Positions 3,062 to 20,223 of a DNA stretch of 20,223 nt are shown piece by piece. The notes under the pieces were generated by a model. That model saw only the letters and a list, made by a program, of their open reading frames with translations, ran no database searches and was not told the origin of the DNA. Made by a program: the position numbers and the translations under genes. This DNA comes from a virus, in the IMG/VR virus record IMGVR_UViG_3300027834_000109, positions 1 through 20,223 of that record; one strand, 5' to 3'. The stretch's first letter is position 1, and the number at the start of each line of letters is the position of its first letter.

Positions 3062-4509
3062 TACTCGCCCTCGCTCACATCGGCGCGCCCGGAAAGCTCA
3101 GCGGCGGCGATGGCTTTCTGCATTGCCTTGGCCAGCTGCTCGCTGGGCATTTCGGCATACAGCGCCGCCATGCCGTCGCGCACCTCTTCAAGGCTCCCTG
3201 CATTCGCCAGCAGGCGGCGCACCGGTTCCATCATTTCGCCCCAGGCGGGCTCGGCTTCACGCTCCAGGCGGTCGGTCATCATGTCGCCACGCCGCTTGGC
3301 GCTGGCGTCATCACGCTCACTAAAGCCCAACGGTGCTGCCGGTGGTGGGCGGTTGTCCACTTCCCAGCCATCGCCATAGCGCTCCTGCACATAGCGCAGG
3401 TTGGGGCGATACCCTAGCCGCGCCACGCGCTCGTCGCGCTCGGCCAGCTTGTTGAGGTCTTCCGGCTGTTCCATCTTGCGCCACACGCGGGGCGTGGCGG
3501 CATTGGGGAAGTTCCATTCGGTTAGCCACTTGGCCACGCTGCGGTTGAAGCTCTCGCACACCACGTCTGCGTCAGCCTTGACGATATCGTCGCGCACGTC
3601 GCTGGCCATGTCCTCGCCACCCAGGCGGCCCGGCGCGCTCTCGCTGGAACCGGTATGCCCCAGGATCACCTTGGCGATAGCGCGATCCATGCGGTCATAC
3701 AGCGAGGTGTAGTCAGCGGTACCACTGCGCGCCGCCTCGATCAGCTCGATCTGCATGCCGTCAGGCACGATCACGCCGCTGTCGCTATGCACGGCCTGCA
3801 GCGCCTGCAGCAGCTTCTGCTTTTGCCCCTCGGTGCTGGACTGGGGAAACGTACCCTTGGCGGTGGGCTGGCCGAATTTGTCCAGGAACACCAGCCATAG
3901 CCGCAGCCCGTTACGCTTGAAAAACACCGGCCAGTAAAGCCAGTGTCCCAGCCCCTGGCCATAGGGCTCGTCGTCGTGATCGGCACCGGTGGCAAAGTGC
4001 CAGAACTTGCGGTCAGGCAGCAGCTCGCCATTGGGTTGGTCAGCCGTCAGCAGCCGCAGCCGCCCGGCACCGTCGAACCGAAAGCGGCGGCGGTTACGCA
4101 CGCGCAGCTGGTCAAGGGTCACAAAGCGGCCATCGCGCCCCCACAGGCACTCAGCCACCGCATAGCCGTAGAACACGCCGTACAGCATGCCCTTGGTAGC
4201 ACGGTCGAAACGGATAGCCTGCAGCTGCTCGCGCAGAAACTCCGCCGCCGCCTTATCCTGGCGGCGCGGGCCGCCGGGCTCCACCTCCCATTCGGCAGAC
4301 ACGGTGGCCAGCTGTCGCTGCGCCCAGGTGGCCTGCACCTGGTCGTCGCGCAGCAGCTCCTCATAAAGCCGCAGGTCGCCACCGCCACGGGCAGCCAGCA
4401 CCGTGTCGCTAGGCTGCAACAGCTGCAACGGCGACACATAGCCCCGCGTCATATCGCGGCCATCCAGCGTGGTGGCCACCTCCTGCATTTCGGGCTTAGT
4501 GCTTGCCAT
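3061..4509 (-). CDS. Portal protein, DUF935 (Mu gp29-like)
   Basis: This 482-residue protein belongs to the DUF935 portal family of Mu-like phages. Recognisable stretches include an N-terminal YVSPLQLLQPSDTVLAARGG, the central FFKRNGLRLWLVFLDKFGQP segment, and the LGHTGSSE region around residue 283-290, all typical of Mu gp29. The portal is the dodecameric ring at the unique capsid vertex through which DNA is packaged and ejected. ATG 4509 overlaps the terminase stop as TAATG. The C-terminus is acidic. Length agrees with the family, and no interruption is seen. Confidence 0.93.
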   Translation of the reverse strand: MASTKPEMQEVATTLDGRDMTRGYVSPLQLLQPSDTVLAARGGGDLRLYEELLRDDQVQATWAQRQLATVSAEWEVEPGGPRRQDKAAAEFLREQLQAIRFDRATKGMLYGVFYGYAVAECLWGRDGRFVTLDQLRVRNRRRFRFDGAGRLRLLTADQPNGELLPDRKFWHFATGADHDDEPYGQGLGHWLYWPVFFKRNGLRLWLVFLDKFGQPTAKGTFPQSSTEGQKQKLLQALQAVHSDSGVIVPDGMQIELIEAARSGTADYTSLYDRMDRAIAKVILGHTGSSESAPGRLGGEDMASDVRDDIVKADADVVCESFNRSVAKWLTEWNFPNAATPRVWRKMEQPEDLNKLAERDERVARLGYRPNLRYVQERYGDGWEVDNRPPPAAPLGFSERDDASAKRRGDMMTDRLEREAEPAWGEMMEPVRRLLANAGSLEEVRDGMAALYAEMPSEQLAKAMQKAIAAAELSGRADVSEGE

Positions 4510-14687: not shown

Positions 14688-14999
14688 TCATTTCTCCAGG
14701 CGGGCCAGATAGGCCCGCTTGTCGGCTGGCCCCGGCGGGGCGTCGAGTAGGTCGATGGCCACCAGCGCCAGCGGCTCGCGGGTGCCGGTACGGCGGGCAT
14801 AGTCAGCGGCGGCAAACTGGTGCGCTTGGCGGGCATTCACGGCAGCCACTTCCAGCACCAGCCAGGCGGCCTCTAGGCCCTCCGGGGCGATCTCGACCCG
14901 GTACATACGCAGGTCACCGGCGCCGACGGTGATCGGTGACACGCCACCGAACAGGTCAGGGTGCAGCGGGCCGGGGATCTTCACGGTCTCGTGGTTCAC
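14688..14999 (-). CDS. Unrecognised early phage protein downstream of B (103 aa)
   Basis: The start is GTG at 14997-14999, in a GTGA overlap with the stop of B. The sequence has a Pro/Gly-rich beginning (VKIPGPLHPDLFGGVSPI). It then shows strands and helices (MYRVEIAPEGLEAAWLVLEV, then NARQAHQFAAADYARRTG) and an acidic/Pro segment near the end. No membrane segment, no Cys. The tight coupling to the transposition ATPase suggests co-expression with it. No family is recognised, and function is not inferred. Confidence 0.72.
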   Translation of the reverse strand: MNHETVKIPGPLHPDLFGGVSPITVGAGDLRMYRVEIAPEGLEAAWLVLEVAAVNARQAHQFAAADYARRTGTREPLALVAIDLLDAPPGPADKRAYLARLEK

Positions 15000-15964
15000 G
15001 CCTCACCTCCCAGGTCGTGCCAGGCATCGCGGATATGCTCGGCAGTCGGGCGGGCGGCACCGGTGGTGGCGGCAAACATGCTGGCCAGGCGCAGCGTTTG
15101 CGACAGGCCGCGCAGTGCGCCGGGGCGGCGGCCAATGTCCAGGCAAAGCTGGCGGGCGGGTTTCTCTTGGATCTGCCAGGCGTCTAGCAGCGCCAGCACA
15201 TCGGCATCCTTGGCGCGGGAAAGCCGCACGCGCTTGGCCACGCGGCTGAACAGCTGGGCAAAGCCCACGCTGCGGCTGCCGCCGGTTAGCTGGCTGTACA
15301 CCACCTCATTGCCCACCAGGGCCAGGCCGATTCCGGCGGCGTCATGAATGGAGCGCACGGCTTCCAGGGCGCGGTGGGTCAGGTGCTGGGCTTCGTCGAT
15401 CACCAGCAGGCCGCGTGTTTCGCGCACCCGCTCGATAATGTTGGCTTCCAGCATGTGCACCGCGCCGGTGGTGCGAATACCCAGCACCTGGGCAATGCGC
15501 GTCAGGATCGGGCCAGGGGCGGACACTGCTGGGGTGGCGGTCACCACCCACACGTTGGGGGCGCTTTGCTGGTAACGGGCAAGCGTGGTGCTTTTACCAA
15601 CGCCTGCACCGCCGTAGACCACCGACACGGCCTCAGCCATCTGGGCAAACGACAGGGCCGACATCACGGCGCGGGCGGTGGGCGTTTCCACCCAGTCGGG
15701 GGCGGCGGGCATTTGCCCCTCTAGCGCGGCGGATGCCTGGCGGCTTTCCAGCCAGCGGCGCACGCTCTCCTCAACGGCGGCCACATTGCCCTTGTAAGTG
15801 CCGCTTAACCACTGGTTAAGGCGGGCTTTACCCACGCCCGTTAGCTGGGCAAGCGCGGTTTGCGACAGGTTGTCGGCTTCCATGATCTGGCGCACTTCGC
15901 CAATCAGGGCATCGTTGTGGGCATTGCGGGTTTTGCTGAACTGGGTCACGTTTGAATCACTCAT
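14996..15964 (-). CDS. Transposition target-capture ATPase B (MuB-like)
   Basis: This 322-residue protein has an N-terminal helix-turn-helix domain (about 20-75, SQTALAQLTGVGKARLNQWL). An AAA+ ATPase domain follows: Walker A GGAGVGKST (118-126), Walker B LLVIDEAQH with Asp190/Glu191, and a sensor region ALVGNEVVY. MuB forms ATP-dependent filaments on target DNA, recruits the transposase-donor complex and gives target immunity. The gene follows A across an 80-bp gap with two hairpins. GGAG lies eight bases upstream of ATG 15964. The C-terminal domain (about 245-322) is helical as in MuB. No defect is visible. Confidence 0.93.
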   Translation of the reverse strand: MSDSNVTQFSKTRNAHNDALIGEVRQIMEADNLSQTALAQLTGVGKARLNQWLSGTYKGNVAAVEESVRRWLESRQASAALEGQMPAAPDWVETPTARAVMSALSFAQMAEAVSVVYGGAGVGKSTTLARYQQSAPNVWVVTATPAVSAPGPILTRIAQVLGIRTTGAVHMLEANIIERVRETRGLLVIDEAQHLTHRALEAVRSIHDAAGIGLALVGNEVVYSQLTGGSRSVGFAQLFSRVAKRVRLSRAKDADVLALLDAWQIQEKPARQLCLDIGRRPGALRGLSQTLRLASMFAATTGAARPTAEHIRDAWHDLGGEA

Positions 15965-16044: not shown

Positions 16045-18018
16045 TTAAAGCTGGCGTTTCTTCCACTGGTCGAAGTTGCCACGCACCATCGAATCCCAGC
16101 TGTACTTCTCCGCGACGCTCTCGCTCTCCTCGTCGACCACCACGTCACTGCCAGCAACACGCTTGCGCTCGCCAAAGCTGCCGCGCACCACATCGGTTTG
16201 CAGCGGGGCGGTATCTTCCGGCTCCGGTGCGGGCATGTAGTCCAGGGTTTCCACTTCGCTCATGCGCTTCTCGGCCTGCACCTGCGCCTTGGCGGCCTTG
16301 GCGCGCTGGGTGCGGTTGCGCGCCCATTCGCGGGCGGCGCGGCTGTCGCCAAAGCCCACGGCAAACAGGCACTCGGCTTCACCGATATAGCGCCCGTCGA
16401 TCTGGTAGGCGTGCACCGACTCGTGCAGCGCATCGGGGTCGAAGCGCACTACTACCTTGCGACCGATATAGGGGATCAGCGCATCGCTGCCGTAGCGGTT
16501 CTTGCCGTTGGGGCCGCTGCCGATCTTTAGCGACAGGCTGCTGTCGCGCTGCACCGTGACCGCCTCGGCAGCCATCAGCCACATACGGCGCTGGGCTTGG
16601 GTGGGGCGGCGTACGCGGTCGGCACTGCGCTGGTAGCTTTCGTCGAACGCCTGGGCAAAGCTCATGCGCCCATCGCAAATCTCGGTGCGGCGGCCTTCCA
16701 TCTCGTTCCACTGGCGGATGGCATCGGCCAGCACCTGGCAGAACTCGGCAAAATCAATCGCGGTGCTGCCGTAGTTCTCGGGCTTGGCGGTGGGGTTGGG
16801 GCCGGTGTAGGCACCCCGGAACTCGTAGCGCTTGTCGGCATACTCACCCAGGCCGCCCACGCCAAAGCTGCGCTCTACCGGTTTAGCCTGGCCGTGACCC
16901 TTGCCCTTGAACACGCTTGTCCAGTGGATCTGGATGCCTAGCTGCGGCATCAGGCCAATCGGGTCTTCCTCTTTCACCTTGAAGCGGTAGCGGGTTTTAA
17001 CGCCGCCCGTCATCCACTTGTTGGCAGCGGCGCGGGTGTTGTCGATGGTGACGTGCTCGGGGATGCCAAAGCGCTCCAGCACATCGCCCAGCGACAGGCG
17101 GATCATGTCGGTGTGTTCGGTGCGGTCAGTGCGAAAGCCCACGATGCGGCGGCTGTATACGTCCTGCCAAAACCACGTTTTGGGGCGGTCGATCGTGCCG
17201 TCCGGGAACTTCACAAACACGTTGTGCTTGTAGCCATCGCCGTTCAGCCAGTACATGGCGTGCAGGTCGCGCACCGTGCGCTGCTGCGCGGGGTAAAGTC
17301 GCATTAATGCCTCCTCGCCTTCGCGGGTCAGTACGCGGGTAACAGTGGGTATTTCGTTGGCCCAGCGGGTCATGGTGCGCTTGCTGGGCAGTGTCCAGCC
17401 GTGCTGCTTGGCGGCCTCTTTGGCCCAGGCGTAGCAGGCGGCAATGCTGGGGGCTTCGGGGCGCAGGTATTGGGCCTTGAAGTATTCCCACGCTTCGGGG
17501 CTGCACTCGGCATTGGCACTGCGACCGCCGTAGCACGGCAGTAGCGCGGCCAGCCAGTCGCTGCGATCCACGCCCTTGACCTCACCCAGCCAGCGGTAGG
17601 CGGTGGAGCGCCCTTCGCCAAACGCCTTGGCGGCTTCGCTGACAGCCTTGGAGCGACCGCTGCCGCTGGCCACCAGCCGCTCCACGGCCTGCACCAGCTG
17701 CAGCTTGCGGGCGGCTTCGTCTTTCATGCCTTGTGGGGCGCGGTCATAGGCGGCCCACAGGCTCTCGCGATCCACCACTGCCGGGGTGCTGGGGGCACGG
17801 CGGGCGGTGGGCGGCGCCGGCTCGCTGGGGGCGGCGTGCTTCATCAGTGCGGCCTGGGTCTCCAGCGGCAGGGCATCGAACGCGTACTCCCTGCCACCGC
17901 CGCGCCCGGCGCGGGGGCGACTTTCCCAGTCGTCGCGCTTGGCACGGCGCACCACGGCGCTGTGCGTGTCGGGCATGCCGGGTAGGCCCGCTAGCTCTTT
18001 AGCGGTAAACCAGTTCAT
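16045..18018 (-). CDS. Mu-type DDE transposase A
   Basis: This 657-residue transposase has an N-terminal winged-helix domain (about 1-65, FTAKELAGLPGMPDTHSAVV), which in Mu binds the enhancer. End-binding helical domains follow (about 85-245) and then the DDE catalytic core. The triad is Asp261 (LNGDGY), Asp326 (TIDNTR) and Glu382 (AKPVERSFG). The spacings of 65 and 56 closely match Mu D269, D336 and E392. The C-terminal part includes a beta-barrel and an acidic/basic tail for B contact. I chose ATG 18018 (MNWFTAKE), with a G-rich ribosome site upstream; a GTG two codons earlier is possible. The triad is intact, so the prophage may be able to transpose. Confidence 0.95.
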   Translation of the reverse strand: MNWFTAKELAGLPGMPDTHSAVVRRAKRDDWESRPRAGRGGGREYAFDALPLETQAALMKHAAPSEPAPPTARRAPSTPAVVDRESLWAAYDRAPQGMKDEAARKLQLVQAVERLVASGSGRSKAVSEAAKAFGEGRSTAYRWLGEVKGVDRSDWLAALLPCYGGRSANAECSPEAWEYFKAQYLRPEAPSIAACYAWAKEAAKQHGWTLPSKRTMTRWANEIPTVTRVLTREGEEALMRLYPAQQRTVRDLHAMYWLNGDGYKHNVFVKFPDGTIDRPKTWFWQDVYSRRIVGFRTDRTEHTDMIRLSLGDVLERFGIPEHVTIDNTRAAANKWMTGGVKTRYRFKVKEEDPIGLMPQLGIQIHWTSVFKGKGHGQAKPVERSFGVGGLGEYADKRYEFRGAYTGPNPTAKPENYGSTAIDFAEFCQVLADAIRQWNEMEGRRTEICDGRMSFAQAFDESYQRSADRVRRPTQAQRRMWLMAAEAVTVQRDSSLSLKIGSGPNGKNRYGSDALIPYIGRKVVVRFDPDALHESVHAYQIDGRYIGEAECLFAVGFGDSRAAREWARNRTQRAKAAKAQVQAEKRMSEVETLDYMPAPEPEDTAPLQTDVVRGSFGERKRVAGSDVVVDEESESVAEKYSWDSMVRGNFDQWKKRQL

Positions 18019-18052
18019 GCACACCCCCGTTTGGGCTGTAATTCATTCATCG

Positions 18053-18529
18053 TCACGCCCTTTCAAACAGTTCAAGTTCTGGCGCACTGGCTTTCCGCAC
18101 GTTTTCGCGGTGGCCAGCGAGTTGCTTAATGGCTTGGGTAACGCCTTCCAGCGTTCCCTCTACGTCGTGTTGCTCGCGGTAAAAAAGGCTTAGGTGCTCA
18201 ACCGCCTTGTTCAGGCACGTTTGTAGATCCATCAGGTCGTGGTGGCTGCACGCCTTGCCTGCCGGTATATCGATCACCAGCTTTTGGGCGCTGCCTGCAA
18301 TCCACTGGGTGATGAACGTGGCACCACACGCAAACTCAAACGGGCGAATGCGGCGGGTGGGGATGCAGCCATCGGCAATCCACTTGTAAACCGTCCACTC
18401 ACTTACCCCGACCAGGTCGGCTATTTGCGCCACGCTGCGGTTGTGCTTGTGCAGCGCGTAGTCGGTGCATAGCCGGGTGGCATGCTCCAGGCTGTGCGGT
18501 TGGGCGGGCTTCCAGCGTTTACGGGTCAT
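18053..18529 (-). CDS. Helix-turn-helix early phage protein (158 aa)
   Basis: A helix-turn-helix near residue 28-60 (NRSVAQIADLVGVSEWTVYK, then WIADGCIPTRRIRPFEF) resembles MerR-like or excisionase-like DNA-binding modules. The C-terminal two thirds is helical with an amphipathic region (LMDLQTCLNKAVEHLSLFYR). It lies between ner and the transposase, a place where Mu-like phages of Pseudomonas also carry HTH proteins. It may regulate the early promoter or assist transposition; neither is shown. ATG 18529 follows a 104-bp gap with five GTGGC motifs. The stop is 34 bp before the transposase start. Confidence 0.78.
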   Translation of the reverse strand: MTRKRWKPAQPHSLEHATRLCTDYALHKHNRSVAQIADLVGVSEWTVYKWIADGCIPTRRIRPFEFACGATFITQWIAGSAQKLVIDIPAGKACSHHDLMDLQTCLNKAVEHLSLFYREQHDVEGTLEGVTQAIKQLAGHRENVRKASAPELELFERA

Positions 18530-18549
18530 TGGGGCTGTATCCTTGTCCA

Positions 18550-18615
18550 GTGGCTACAAACGTGGCGCTACTCTGTGGCTAGGCGACCTCTCTGGTGGCG
18601 GCTAACCTGAGTGGC
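18550..18615. repeat. Array of five GTGGC motifs upstream of the HTH gene
   Basis: GTGGC occurs at 18550, 18562, 18575, 18595 and 18611 (plus strand). Four are followed within a few bases by CTA (two GTGGCTA, one GTGGCGCTA, one GTGGCGGCTA). They fill most of the 104-bp gap between ner and the HTH gene. The GTGG core matches the arms of the palindromes in the early promoter. Probably binding sites for the repressor, Ner or the HTH protein. Confidence 0.5.
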
Positions 18616-18633
18616 ACATGAAGGGAGTTGACC

Positions 18634-18930
18634 CTATGCTGCTTTTCTATTGCTCTGCTGACAGTTCCGTTTATTGGCACCAGTGGTATCCTTGTTCGCG
18701 TAACGGCTCGGCCAAATGGTCATGGGGTCGGTACCAATCGCGTCGGCAATCAACCGCTCGCCTTTCGGCCAATGCCGATCAAGCGCAACGGTTAGCGTGG
18801 TCGCACATGAGTAGCCGTGGTGCGTGGCGAGCTTTCGCAGAGACCAGCCAGCTTTACGGACAGCGGCGACGATGTCGGCGCGATGCCAGTCTTCTGGACT
18901 GGCTTTTTTTGATGCGCTTTTTTCATTCAT
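18634..18930 (-). CDS. ner: Ner-like transcriptional regulator
   Basis: This 98-residue protein contains the Ner/Nlp winged HTH family core: SPEDWHRADIVAAVRKAGWS then LRKLATHHGYSCATTLTVAL and WPKGERLIADAIGTDPMTIW PSRY, all family hallmarks. In Mu, Ner dampens both the early and repressor promoters. The start is ATG 18930 (MNEKSASKK): the open frame reaches 19020, but the extra N-terminus overlaps the early promoter and is not family-like. Another in-frame Met is absent before the core. The gene is the first of the early operon. On the opposite strand its 5' part contains a perfect terminator-like hairpin (separate entry). Confidence 0.9.
   Translation of the reverse strand: MNEKSASKKASPEDWHRADIVAAVRKAGWSLRKLATHHGYSCATTLTVALDRHWPKGERLIADAIGTDPMTIWPSRYANKDTTGANKRNCQQSNRKAA
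18885..18910 (+). terminator. Perfect intrinsic terminator on the plus strand, inside ner (antisense)
   Basis: GCCAGTC (18885-18891) and GACTGGC (18897-18903) form a 7-bp stem with a five-base loop, followed directly by seven T (18904-18910). On the plus strand this is a textbook intrinsic terminator; on the minus strand (ner) the order is inverted and it would not terminate. It could stop plus-strand read-through into the control region and repressor. It overlaps a conserved coding part of ner (KKASPEDWHR). Confidence 0.7.
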
Positions 18931-18972
18931 GTGTAAAAGGCTCTTTGCTGCTTTCGGGTTAGTACATGAATG

Positions 18973-19001
18973 AATATAGCGCCACGAATGTGGATGGTCA
19001 A
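18973..19001 (-). promoter_or_regulatory. Early promoter (P_e-like) for ner and the transposition operon
   Basis: On the minus strand, TTGACC (18996-19001) and TATATT (18973-18978) are separated by exactly 17 bp: a near-consensus sigma70 promoter, 43 bp upstream of the ner ATG. The spacer contains the palindrome CCACGAATGTGG. A second palindrome-like element abuts the -35. This is the best promoter in the window and lies where the Mu early promoter does, divergent from the repressor. Confidence 0.85.
18982..18993. promoter_or_regulatory. Operator palindrome in the early promoter spacer
   Basis: CCACGAATGTGG is a perfect 4-bp-arm palindrome between the -35 and -10 of the early promoter. A bound repressor here would block RNA polymerase directly. 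It starts exactly 20 bp from the next related element (19002). Confidence 0.65.
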
Positions 19002-19013
19002 CCACGTTATTGG
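19002..19013. promoter_or_regulatory. Second operator element beside the early -35
   Basis: CCACGTTATTGG has the same CCA...TGG frame as the spacer palindrome and lies two helical turns away, directly upstream of the early -35. Flanking it are two GGTCAA repeats (18996-19001, 19015-19020). ACCACGTT at 19001-19008 is repeated in inverted form at 19040-19047. Confidence 0.55.
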
Positions 19014-19039
19014 AGGTCAATGTTCGGCATGCCTGTAAA

Positions 19040-19052
19040 AACGTGGTAATAA
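19040..19052. promoter_or_regulatory. Third operator element / repressor promoter area
   Basis: AACGTGGT (19040-19047) is the exact inverse of ACCACGTT at 19001-19008 and runs into TAATAA (19047-19052), an AT-rich -10-like sequence for the plus-strand repressor gene. I cannot define one clear -35 for that promoter. Binding here would autoregulate the repressor. Confidence 0.45.
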
Positions 19053-19091
19053 ATTATTAAAAACACTGAAATCAAGGGCTTAGGTGTAACT

Positions 19092-19583
19092 ATGACGCGT
19101 CAAACTTCTACGAACGAAGAGGTCAATGTTCAGGCCGCGAAGGTTGACGCGTTTGGGGAGCGGGTTTCCGTGGCCATAGATCGAGTGGGTGGCTCCACGA
19201 AAATGGCAGAAATAGCAGAAGTGTCCACTTCTGTGCTCAGCAAGTGGCGGCGTGGCGAGTCAGACCCGTCACGCTCAAGGCTCGTAAAGATGGCTAATGC
19301 AGCAGGCGTTTCGGTGGAGTGGCTAGCCACGGGTAAAGGCGCGCCAGACGGCACAGCAGAAGCGCCCAAGGCACCGCCCGCCGGGCCAAGCGAGGAGAAT
19401 CTGGCGTTACTGGAGGAGGTGGCAACGGCGGCGTTTGTGGAGCTTCAGGCGCGCAACATCCACCTGGAGCCCGCCGCCCAAGCGCGCCTGGTGCGCGTGC
19501 TATACCGCCATTTCGCCAGCAAAAACGAACGACCAGACCACGATACCGTAAGCAATATCATAGACTTAGCCGCATGTAGATAG
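19092..19583 (+). CDS. Xre/HTH_3-type prophage repressor
   Basis: This 163-residue protein has a lambda-Cro-type helix-turn-helix at about 17-75 (FGERVSVAIDRVGGSTKMAE, then VSTSVLSKWRRGESDPSRSR and ANAAGVSVEWLATGKG). A Pro/Ala linker leads to a helical C-terminal part (ENLALLEEVATAAFVELQAR). There is no S24/LexA-like peptidase domain, so RecA-stimulated self-cleavage is not expected. It is divergent from ner and the early promoter, the place of the Mu c repressor, but is a different fold from Mu c. ATG 19092 has AGGTG upstream. It is probably the lysogeny repressor that binds the GTGG/CCAC operators; specificity is inferred. Confidence 0.85.
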   Translation: MTRQTSTNEEVNVQAAKVDAFGERVSVAIDRVGGSTKMAEIAEVSTSVLSKWRRGESDPSRSRLVKMANAAGVSVEWLATGKGAPDGTAEAPKAPPAGPSEENLALLEEVATAAFVELQARNIHLEPAAQARLVRVLYRHFASKNERPDHDTVSNIIDLAACR

Positions 19584-19606
19584 CGGCACGCACTCAGGGG
19601 GCAGGG

Positions 19607-20134
19607 ATGAAAGACGAGTTACAGAAACAAATTGGCGAGATCTTGGACAAGGGGCAGCAAGGCAGGGGCGCAGCAACGGTACACATCAGCATAGGCGACA
19701 TCGTGAACAACCAGGGCACGGTGGTGATTGGCGGCGACGTGCGGCGCGAAGGCAGCGCCAGCAGCGAGGAGGACAGCGACAGCGAAGGCGACCCAGGCGC
19801 CCCAGCGCTTCGCCAGGAACTGCACGCATTGCGCGAACAGCTTCAGCATCTTAAGCGACTGTTAACGACCGTTTACCGATCCTTTTTAAACACCCGTAAA
19901 CGCCCGCCAACTGCGCCGTGCGCTTGTCCCAACTTAAATGGCACAAACCGCCATTCCCGCCCGGTTGTCCCAATTTGCCCCACCCGCCGCTTTTCCCGTC
20001 CCGCTCGCACCGCAACCGCCGCCAAGCCGCGCCACGCCGCACTTCCCGTCCCGTTATATCTTCCCTGCTGCCACCAAATCCCACTCCCCACTATGTCCCA
20101 TACCTACTGTCCCCCCTCAAGCGGTGATAGGTGA
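19607..20134 (+). CDS. Unrecognised protein beside the repressor; C-terminal half of doubtful coding
   Basis: ATG 19607 is preceded by GGGGGCAGGG and lies 23 bp after the repressor stop, so both are probably one lysogenic operon. Residues 1-90 look like a protein: a helix (MKDELQKQIGEILDKGQQ), strands (TVHISIGDIVNNQGTVVIGG), an acidic Ser/Glu/Asp stretch, and a helix or coiled coil (LRQELHALREQLQHLKRLL). After about residue 95 the frame becomes Pro/Arg/Cys/Ser-rich and its DNA C-rich and G-poor, like non-coding terminal DNA. It stops at 20134. The real gene may have ended near 19865 before a lost stop or indel, or may be completed by DNA outside the phage. No family is recognised. Confidence 0.55.
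   Translation: MKDELQKQIGEILDKGQQGRGAATVHISIGDIVNNQGTVVIGGDVRREGSASSEEDSDSEGDPGAPALRQELHALREQLQHLKRLLTTVYRSFLNTRKRPPTAPCACPNLNGTNRHSRPVVPICPTRRFSRPARTATAAKPRHAALPVPLYLPCCHQIPLPTMSHTYCPPSSGDR
19924..20113. repeat. GTCCC array in a C-rich strand; candidate phage left end
   Basis: GTCCC occurs at 19926, 19967, 19998, 20048, 20095 and 20109: six times in about 190 bp. They sit in related contexts: TTGTCCCAA twice (19924, 19965), TTCCCGTCCCG twice (19993, 20043), and TGTCCCA at 20094-20100. Reading inward on the minus strand, the motif at 20100 begins TGGGACA. Mu-like phage ends begin with TG, so 20100 is a candidate phage terminus with internal transposase sites behind it. This is inference. Confidence 0.45.
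19956..19981 (-). other. Canonical G-quadruplex motif on the minus strand
   Basis: On the minus strand, runs of GGGG, GGG, GGG and GGG are separated by loops of 6, 6 and 1 bases, satisfying the standard G3+N1-7 pattern. It overlaps one of the TTGTCCCAA repeats in the candidate end region. Confidence 0.5.
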
Positions 20135-20136
20135 CG

Positions 20137-20223
20137 TTAGTAAACCGACGGGGGCGTGGCCGCCGCTGGTGCGGTATCACCGTCGTCTTTAAAGCTGCTG
20201 GCCAACGCTTTCAGTGAGTTCAT
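20137..20223 (-). CDS. C-terminal end (or short ORF) of a gene entering from beyond the window
   Basis: A minus-strand frame from the last base of the window reads MNSLKALASSFKDDGDTAPA then AATPPSVY and stops with TAA at 20137-20139. The first codon seen is ATG at 20223, but the frame may continue upstream outside the window, so this may be a C-terminal fragment. It is convergent with the plus-strand frame ending at 20134, only two bases away. The helix plus flexible Ala/Pro tail gives no family. It could be a host gene flanking the prophage or a phage gene. Confidence 0.4.
   Translation of the reverse strand: MNSLKALASSFKDDGDTAPAAATPPSVY

Follow-up and report, generated by a model that had tools for sequence, protein, structure and literature searches.

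Gene content and layout of the early control region

The window, as we call the whole stretch of 20,223 bp analysed here, is an IMG/VR virus record and contains the left portion of a Mu-like genome. Its genes and the elements between them are given in Table 1. An earlier note on this DNA had described the region as a Mu-type switch with an Xre repressor, and the domain content agrees with that description: a repressor with HTH_3 and Phage_CI_repr, its HTH being of the Xre/CI class, is found together with Ner (HTH_35), MuA domains and MuB. In the repressor, a leader spanning iterons b to d is followed by the HTH and then by a short C-terminal domain. Searches of viral and genome contigs with the repressor alone did not find relatives. 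The Ialpha domain of A is a homologue of the domain through which MuA binds its enhancer (1TNS).

Table 1. Genes and sequence elements of the window (coordinates in bp).
Feature	Position	Strand	Remarks
B (MuB)	14996-15964	-	
Transposase A	16045-18024	-	MuA domains including HTH_Tnp_Mu_1
Ialpha coding stretch	17809-18018	-	Predicted enhancer-binding domain of A
CII-like gene	18053-18529	-	
ner	18634-18930	-	Pfam HTH_35
Early promoter Pe	18973-19001	-	-35 TTGACC (19001-18996), 17-bp spacer, -10 TATATT (18978-18973)
Putative repressor operator 1	18982-18993		CCACGAATGTGG; within the Pe spacer; 8/12 symmetric positions
Putative repressor operator 2	19002-19013		CCACGTTATTGG; abuts the Pe -35; exactly 20 bp from operator 1
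Iteron a (O2-like)	19016-19025	+	GTCAATGTTC; intergenic
Putative repressor half-site	19040-19047		AACGTGGT; on the repressor-promoter side
IHF consensus	19070-19082	+	AATCAAGGGCTTA (WATCARNNNNTTR); between iterons a and b
Xre/CI-type repressor	19092-19583	+	Pfam HTH_3 and Phage_CI_repr
Iteron b	19099-19108	+	GTCAAACTTC; repressor codons 3-6
Iteron c (O1-like)	19122-19131	+	GTCAATGTTC; inside the repressor gene
Iteron d (O1-like, inverted)	19139-19148	-	GTCAACCTTC on the minus strand; inside the repressor gene

Other features were observed around these genes. A long inverted repeat (18914-18932 and 18964-18982; 19-nt arms, 89% complementary) surrounds the start of ner and the -10 of Pe, and inverted repeats of differing sequence occupy the position equivalent to window 18914-18982 in phages B23 and YPCBV-1; these repeats are possibly Ner sites. 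Near the left end, TGTCCCA repeats are present at 19925, 19966 and 20094, the first two being likewise 41 bp apart in YPCBV-1, and they are likely to be transposase end sites. The similarity between the window and L047 (fetched loci are numbered with an L) extends to about 20119, so the final ~100 bp may be host DNA. Downstream of the repressor, from 19607 onward in the window and from about 6746 onward in L002, there is a small ORF with the conserved ILDKG...GDIVNNQGTVVIGG, which is unannotated in YPCBV-1 and has no family match. The repressor CDS of B23 (L003:3393-3872) was deposited with its start at 3582, 63 codons later than the start at 3393 given by the comparison. In L021 and L047 (Halomonas saccharevitans) A has shrunk to a 71-aa ORF, in which Ialpha runs directly into the C-terminal 15 residues of B, at about 0.98-1.24 kb from site a; it is an internal deletion leaving a free Ialpha, with the candidate enhancer, the repressor and Ner retained.

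Palindromic elements at the early promoter

The TTGACC-17-TATATT of Pe is the only sigma-70-like match in 17500-20223, where shuffled sequences gave a mean of 0.8, and equivalents are present in YPCBV-1 (TTGCAA-17-TATATT) and B23 (TTGCAA-17-TATTAT). The earlier note placed a perfect palindrome inside the 17-bp spacer. The spacer does contain CCACGAATGTGG, but the palindrome is imperfect and of the form CCAC-N4-GTGG: its reverse complement is CCACATTCGTGG and only the CCAC/GTGG positions pair (8 of 12), against 10 of 12 in the version of the relatives, CCACGAACGTGG. The related element CCACGTTATTGG was confirmed at exactly 20 bp, against the -35, as was the inverted pair extending towards the repressor promoter, ACCACGTT (19001-19008) and AACGTGGT being exact inverted copies; AACGTGG is also found at the half-site position in L016, L024 and L055. 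By count alone the CCAC elements are weak, with 2 copies of CCACNNNNGTGG in the window against 0.7 expected and 10 of CCACGNNNNNGG against 6.4.

Conservation of the palindromes in relatives, which the earlier note had named as a check, was found only in part. Neither B23 nor YPCBV-1, the phage whose A is closest to that of the window (82% identical), has them, but all fetched loci with the same recognition helix do. These are four independent phages (the window, L016, L024, which equals L041 and L077, and L055), and the element is confined to them among the fetched loci; CCACGAAYGTGG occurs in L016, L024 and L055. The repressors of L016, L024 and L055 have the window-type recognition helix VSTSVLSKWRRGESDPSRSRL, and A of L016 is only 39% identical to that of the window. 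A scan of the viral collection with the two-element operator matched only L016 and L024. Repressors with other helices have other palindromes at this position, such as GCGTTTAAACGC in L049 and CTCTATAGAG in B23. Among 42 distinct loci, which are themselves related, Mantel tests gave a correlation of 0.64 between the similarity of the Pe region and that of the repressor HTH (partial r = 0.552, P = 0.001), with a small cross-correlation of 0.20 between operator and Ialpha. As the palindromes track the repressor and not the phage backbone, the CCAC/GTGG elements at Pe are likely to be operators of the repressor, and the comparison supports the earlier note on this point. They are dyad-symmetric sites over the promoter that would be repressed and they track the recognition helix, with an imperfect symmetry in the window.

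Iterons and the Ialpha domain of the transposase

A stronger feature than the CCAC elements, not listed by the earlier note, is a set of iterons. GTCAANNTT has four copies in the 20,223 bp, all within 133 bp (19016-19148), at 19016, 19099, 19122 and, inverted, 19140; one copy is intergenic and three lie in the first codons of the repressor gene. Positions 19013-19025 and 19119-19131 form an exact repeat of 13 nt, and the IHF consensus partly overlaps the ribosome-binding region. We did not find a description of these iterons in the open-access literature.

The window, YPCBV-1, B23 and L007 share exactly the same spacings (83, 23 and 18 bp). Searching the viral and genome collections with a pattern made of the DNA geometry of a, c and d alone brought up many Mu-like loci, and in the true pattern loci an Xre-type repressor gene begins at the expected place. 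Matches of the GTCAA pattern with no such repressor downstream were discarded as chance, one of them viral (L023) and the others from genomes (L034-L040, L042, L045, L046, L048, L050-L054 and L056-L061); a first, wrongly spaced TTTCAANNTT pattern gave two AT-rich chance matches. The total span of the iterons is 133 bp, compared with 129-132 bp in phages with S24-type repressors, and the 129-133 bp geometry is present in dozens of Mu-like phages with differing repressors. Of 21 distinct loci, 12 have a perfect IHF consensus and 20 have one with at most one mismatch, which in these 20 lies 50-52 bp before c.

A further search, of the DNA upstream of A, accepted any motif, provided that three 10-mers resembling one another had the a-c-d geometry and a correctly positioned IHF site. 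This motif-blind search was designed after the GTCAA set had been seen, and triples scoring at least 17 were not equalled in any of 200 simple dinucleotide-block shuffles. It uncovered TTTCAAGTTC in DMS3, MP22, L064, L069 and L071, GTTCTAGTTY in L070, GTCACAGTTA in L012 and TTCCKAGTTY in L137, as well as GTCCGTTT and TTCCTTTT types with the same layout in further Mu-like phages. The same search gave no triple in phage Mu or in several phages with an Ialpha-paralogue repressor, and no significant triple in L074, which has a similar Ialpha.

The presence of the iterons follows Ialpha and not the remaining part of A. They are present in L016, where Ialpha is 73% and the rest of A 37% identical to the window, and in L019, L022, L029 and L043 (53-63% and 26-28%, respectively), and absent from L073 (36% and 66%) and from L082 and L084 (40% and 56-57%). 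In DMS3, MP22 and their relatives, tblastn matches the A protein of the window only at about residues 2-62. Motif similarity showed a Mantel correlation of 0.775 with the recognition segment of Ialpha, against 0.061 with the catalytic domain of A. A partial correlation of 0.587 (P = 0.001) with the recognition segment was left given the catalytic domain, the rest of Ialpha and the repressor HTH; Mantel P values are optimistic here because the loci are related, and these tests do not replace a phylogenetic model. The corresponding value for 28 loci that had not been fetched by the motif was 0.681, given the catalytic domain and the HTH. Residue 22 of Ialpha is Ser with GTCA (16/16), Gln with NTTC (6/6) or Arg with NTCC (10/11, L028 being the exception), in classes that leave out two Lys loci and one Asn locus. 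The rule was then tested forward with a TTTCAANTTC geometry pattern, which retrieved five loci, all of them Gln22; two of these are close to DMS3. The sites, their fixed geometry and the way they covary with Ialpha or the repressor HTH are features of the sequences themselves.

A candidate enhancer separate from the putative repressor operators

The GTCAATGTTC iterons are situated at the repressor gene and its promoter, and a small partial correlation (0.19) is left between their motif and the repressor HTH, as would be expected if the repressor bound them as its operators and the CCAC palindromes were incidental. We consider this improbable: the iterons are unchanged while the HTH drops to 31-34% identity, they persist where the C-terminal domain of the repressor changes or an S24-type repressor replaces the short type, and the repressor helix is tracked by the CCAC sites instead. 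Identity values for the repressor C-terminus, in which gapped columns had been counted, were unreliable and played no part in this comparison. Still less probable is binding by Ner, which is encoded next to the iterons and would act at this control region. Ner was rejected as the iteron binder since the iterons do not track it: L064, L069 and L071 have a Ner 57-67% identical to that of the window and yet carry TTTCAAG iterons, L002 and L021 (Ner 56% and 65%, respectively) carry GTCAATG iterons, and no match to the Ner of the window was obtained at ten iteron loci, among them DMS3 and MP22.

It is hardly credible that the motifs reflect a conserved N-terminal peptide of the repressor (VNV..VDAF) instead of DNA sites. 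Iterons b to d do lie in coding sequence, and members of the GTCAA group have similar leader peptides, but iteron a, which is non-coding, has the same sequence at an exact spacing. In other groups, moreover, the sites are read in another frame: c and d lie in repressor frame 0, 1 or 2 depending on the phage, so that the encoded residues are unrelated. We give just as little credit to the picture implied by the earlier note, in which the CCAC palindromes, located at the early promoter as in Mu, would be operator and enhancer at once and also be bound by A. These palindromes are missing from YPCBV-1, and a nearly identical A (82%, with Ialpha 83% identical) would there lack such sites; the likely enhancer is formed by the separate and much better conserved iterons.

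The reading we favour, with a probability of about 0.8, is that the iterons form a transposition enhancer of the Mu type (O2-IHF-O1) that A binds and that is uncoupled from the operators of the Xre repressor. Two protein-binding systems, interleaved yet separate, would share 18973-19148. In one of them, iteron a and iterons b-c-d would flank a bend made by IHF, whose predicted site lies between the two halves at a conserved position, and would be read by the N-terminal winged-helix Ialpha of A while the other domains of A grip the phage ends, as in the three-site synapse of Mu. In the other, the CCAC/GTGG palindromes in and against Pe, together with the half-site, would allow the Xre repressor to shut off ner-A-B and perhaps to tune itself. 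We infer binding, IHF bending, the synapse and the link between the two systems from the sequence patterns described above. How repression and enhancer are linked had been left open by the earlier note, and distinct interleaved sites for two unrelated DNA-binding domains provide an answer in outline. The remaining link is likely to be steric, since the gap between operator 2 and iteron a is 2 bp and the repressor gene contains the O1 half. As the repressor has another fold and predicted sites of its own, immunity specificity could change with the enhancer kept.

For the Mu-like phages in general we lean, less firmly, towards a fixed-geometry O2-IHF-O1 scaffold that in many of them lies partly in the start of the repressor gene, with letters set by a residue-22 code of Ialpha (Ser = GTCA, Gln = NTTC, Arg = NTCC) and with repressor DNA-binding domains and operators swapped around it, the shared operator-enhancer of Mu being a special case and not the rule. 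If the code is true, S22Q in Ialpha would move the preference from GTCAANGTT towards TTTCAAGTT, which makes the enhancer-Ialpha interface directly testable, and the enhancers of uncharacterised Mu-like phages would be predictable from the N-terminus of the transposase. Unlike in Mu, the repressor could be swapped between viruses without breaking the transposition machinery. In the textbook view, the control of transposition is tied to lysogenic repression through the operator/enhancer shared in Mu; should many relatives retain the enhancer without this link, the link would be dispensable and immunity could evolve independently of transposition.

A few Xre-type relatives were also observed to carry an iteron copy in Pe. 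In L105, L116, L117, L131 and L134 the repressor has an Ialpha-like domain and the iteron occurs once or twice more in Pe with the same geometry; on this shared scaffold they resemble the coupled arrangement of Mu, and they are possible intermediates between Mu and the uncoupled arrangement.

In Mu, an IHF site lies within the enhancer, and the repressor binds the same sites as Ialpha through a DNA-binding domain paralogous to it, so that one sequence has both roles. The Mu enhancer is located between the repressor and ner and has several sites, which are bound by the Ialpha domain of MuA (PMC3562280; PMC3362531). The window resembles the O1-IHF-O2 of Mu in the location between repressor and ner, in several sites around a predicted IHF site and in a homologous Ialpha, with which its iterons covary as would be expected of a Mu-type enhancer. 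It differs from Mu in the sequence and spacing of the sites, whose exact geometry Mu does not have, and in its repressor, which has the Xre/CI fold (HTH_3/Phage_CI_repr) and putative palindromic operators of its own distinct from the iterons, and is not a paralogue of Ialpha. The enhancer of the D3112 group has been placed only by analogy with Mu (PMC5977238), and another account of the group gives end sites only (PMC4378225). The Pseudomonas phages DMS3 and MP22 of this group have an Xre-type repressor, the a-IHF-c-d layout, 2 bp shorter, and an A that matches the window in Ialpha only, and differ in the motif TTTCAAGTTC with Gln22, in the S24 type of the repressor and in the frame of the sites. 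Chromohalobacter phage YPCBV-1 (A 82% identical) and Alteromonadaceae phage B23 (58%) share the iterons and the 83/23/18 spacing with the window, and differ from it in having another repressor recognition helix and no CCAC operators.
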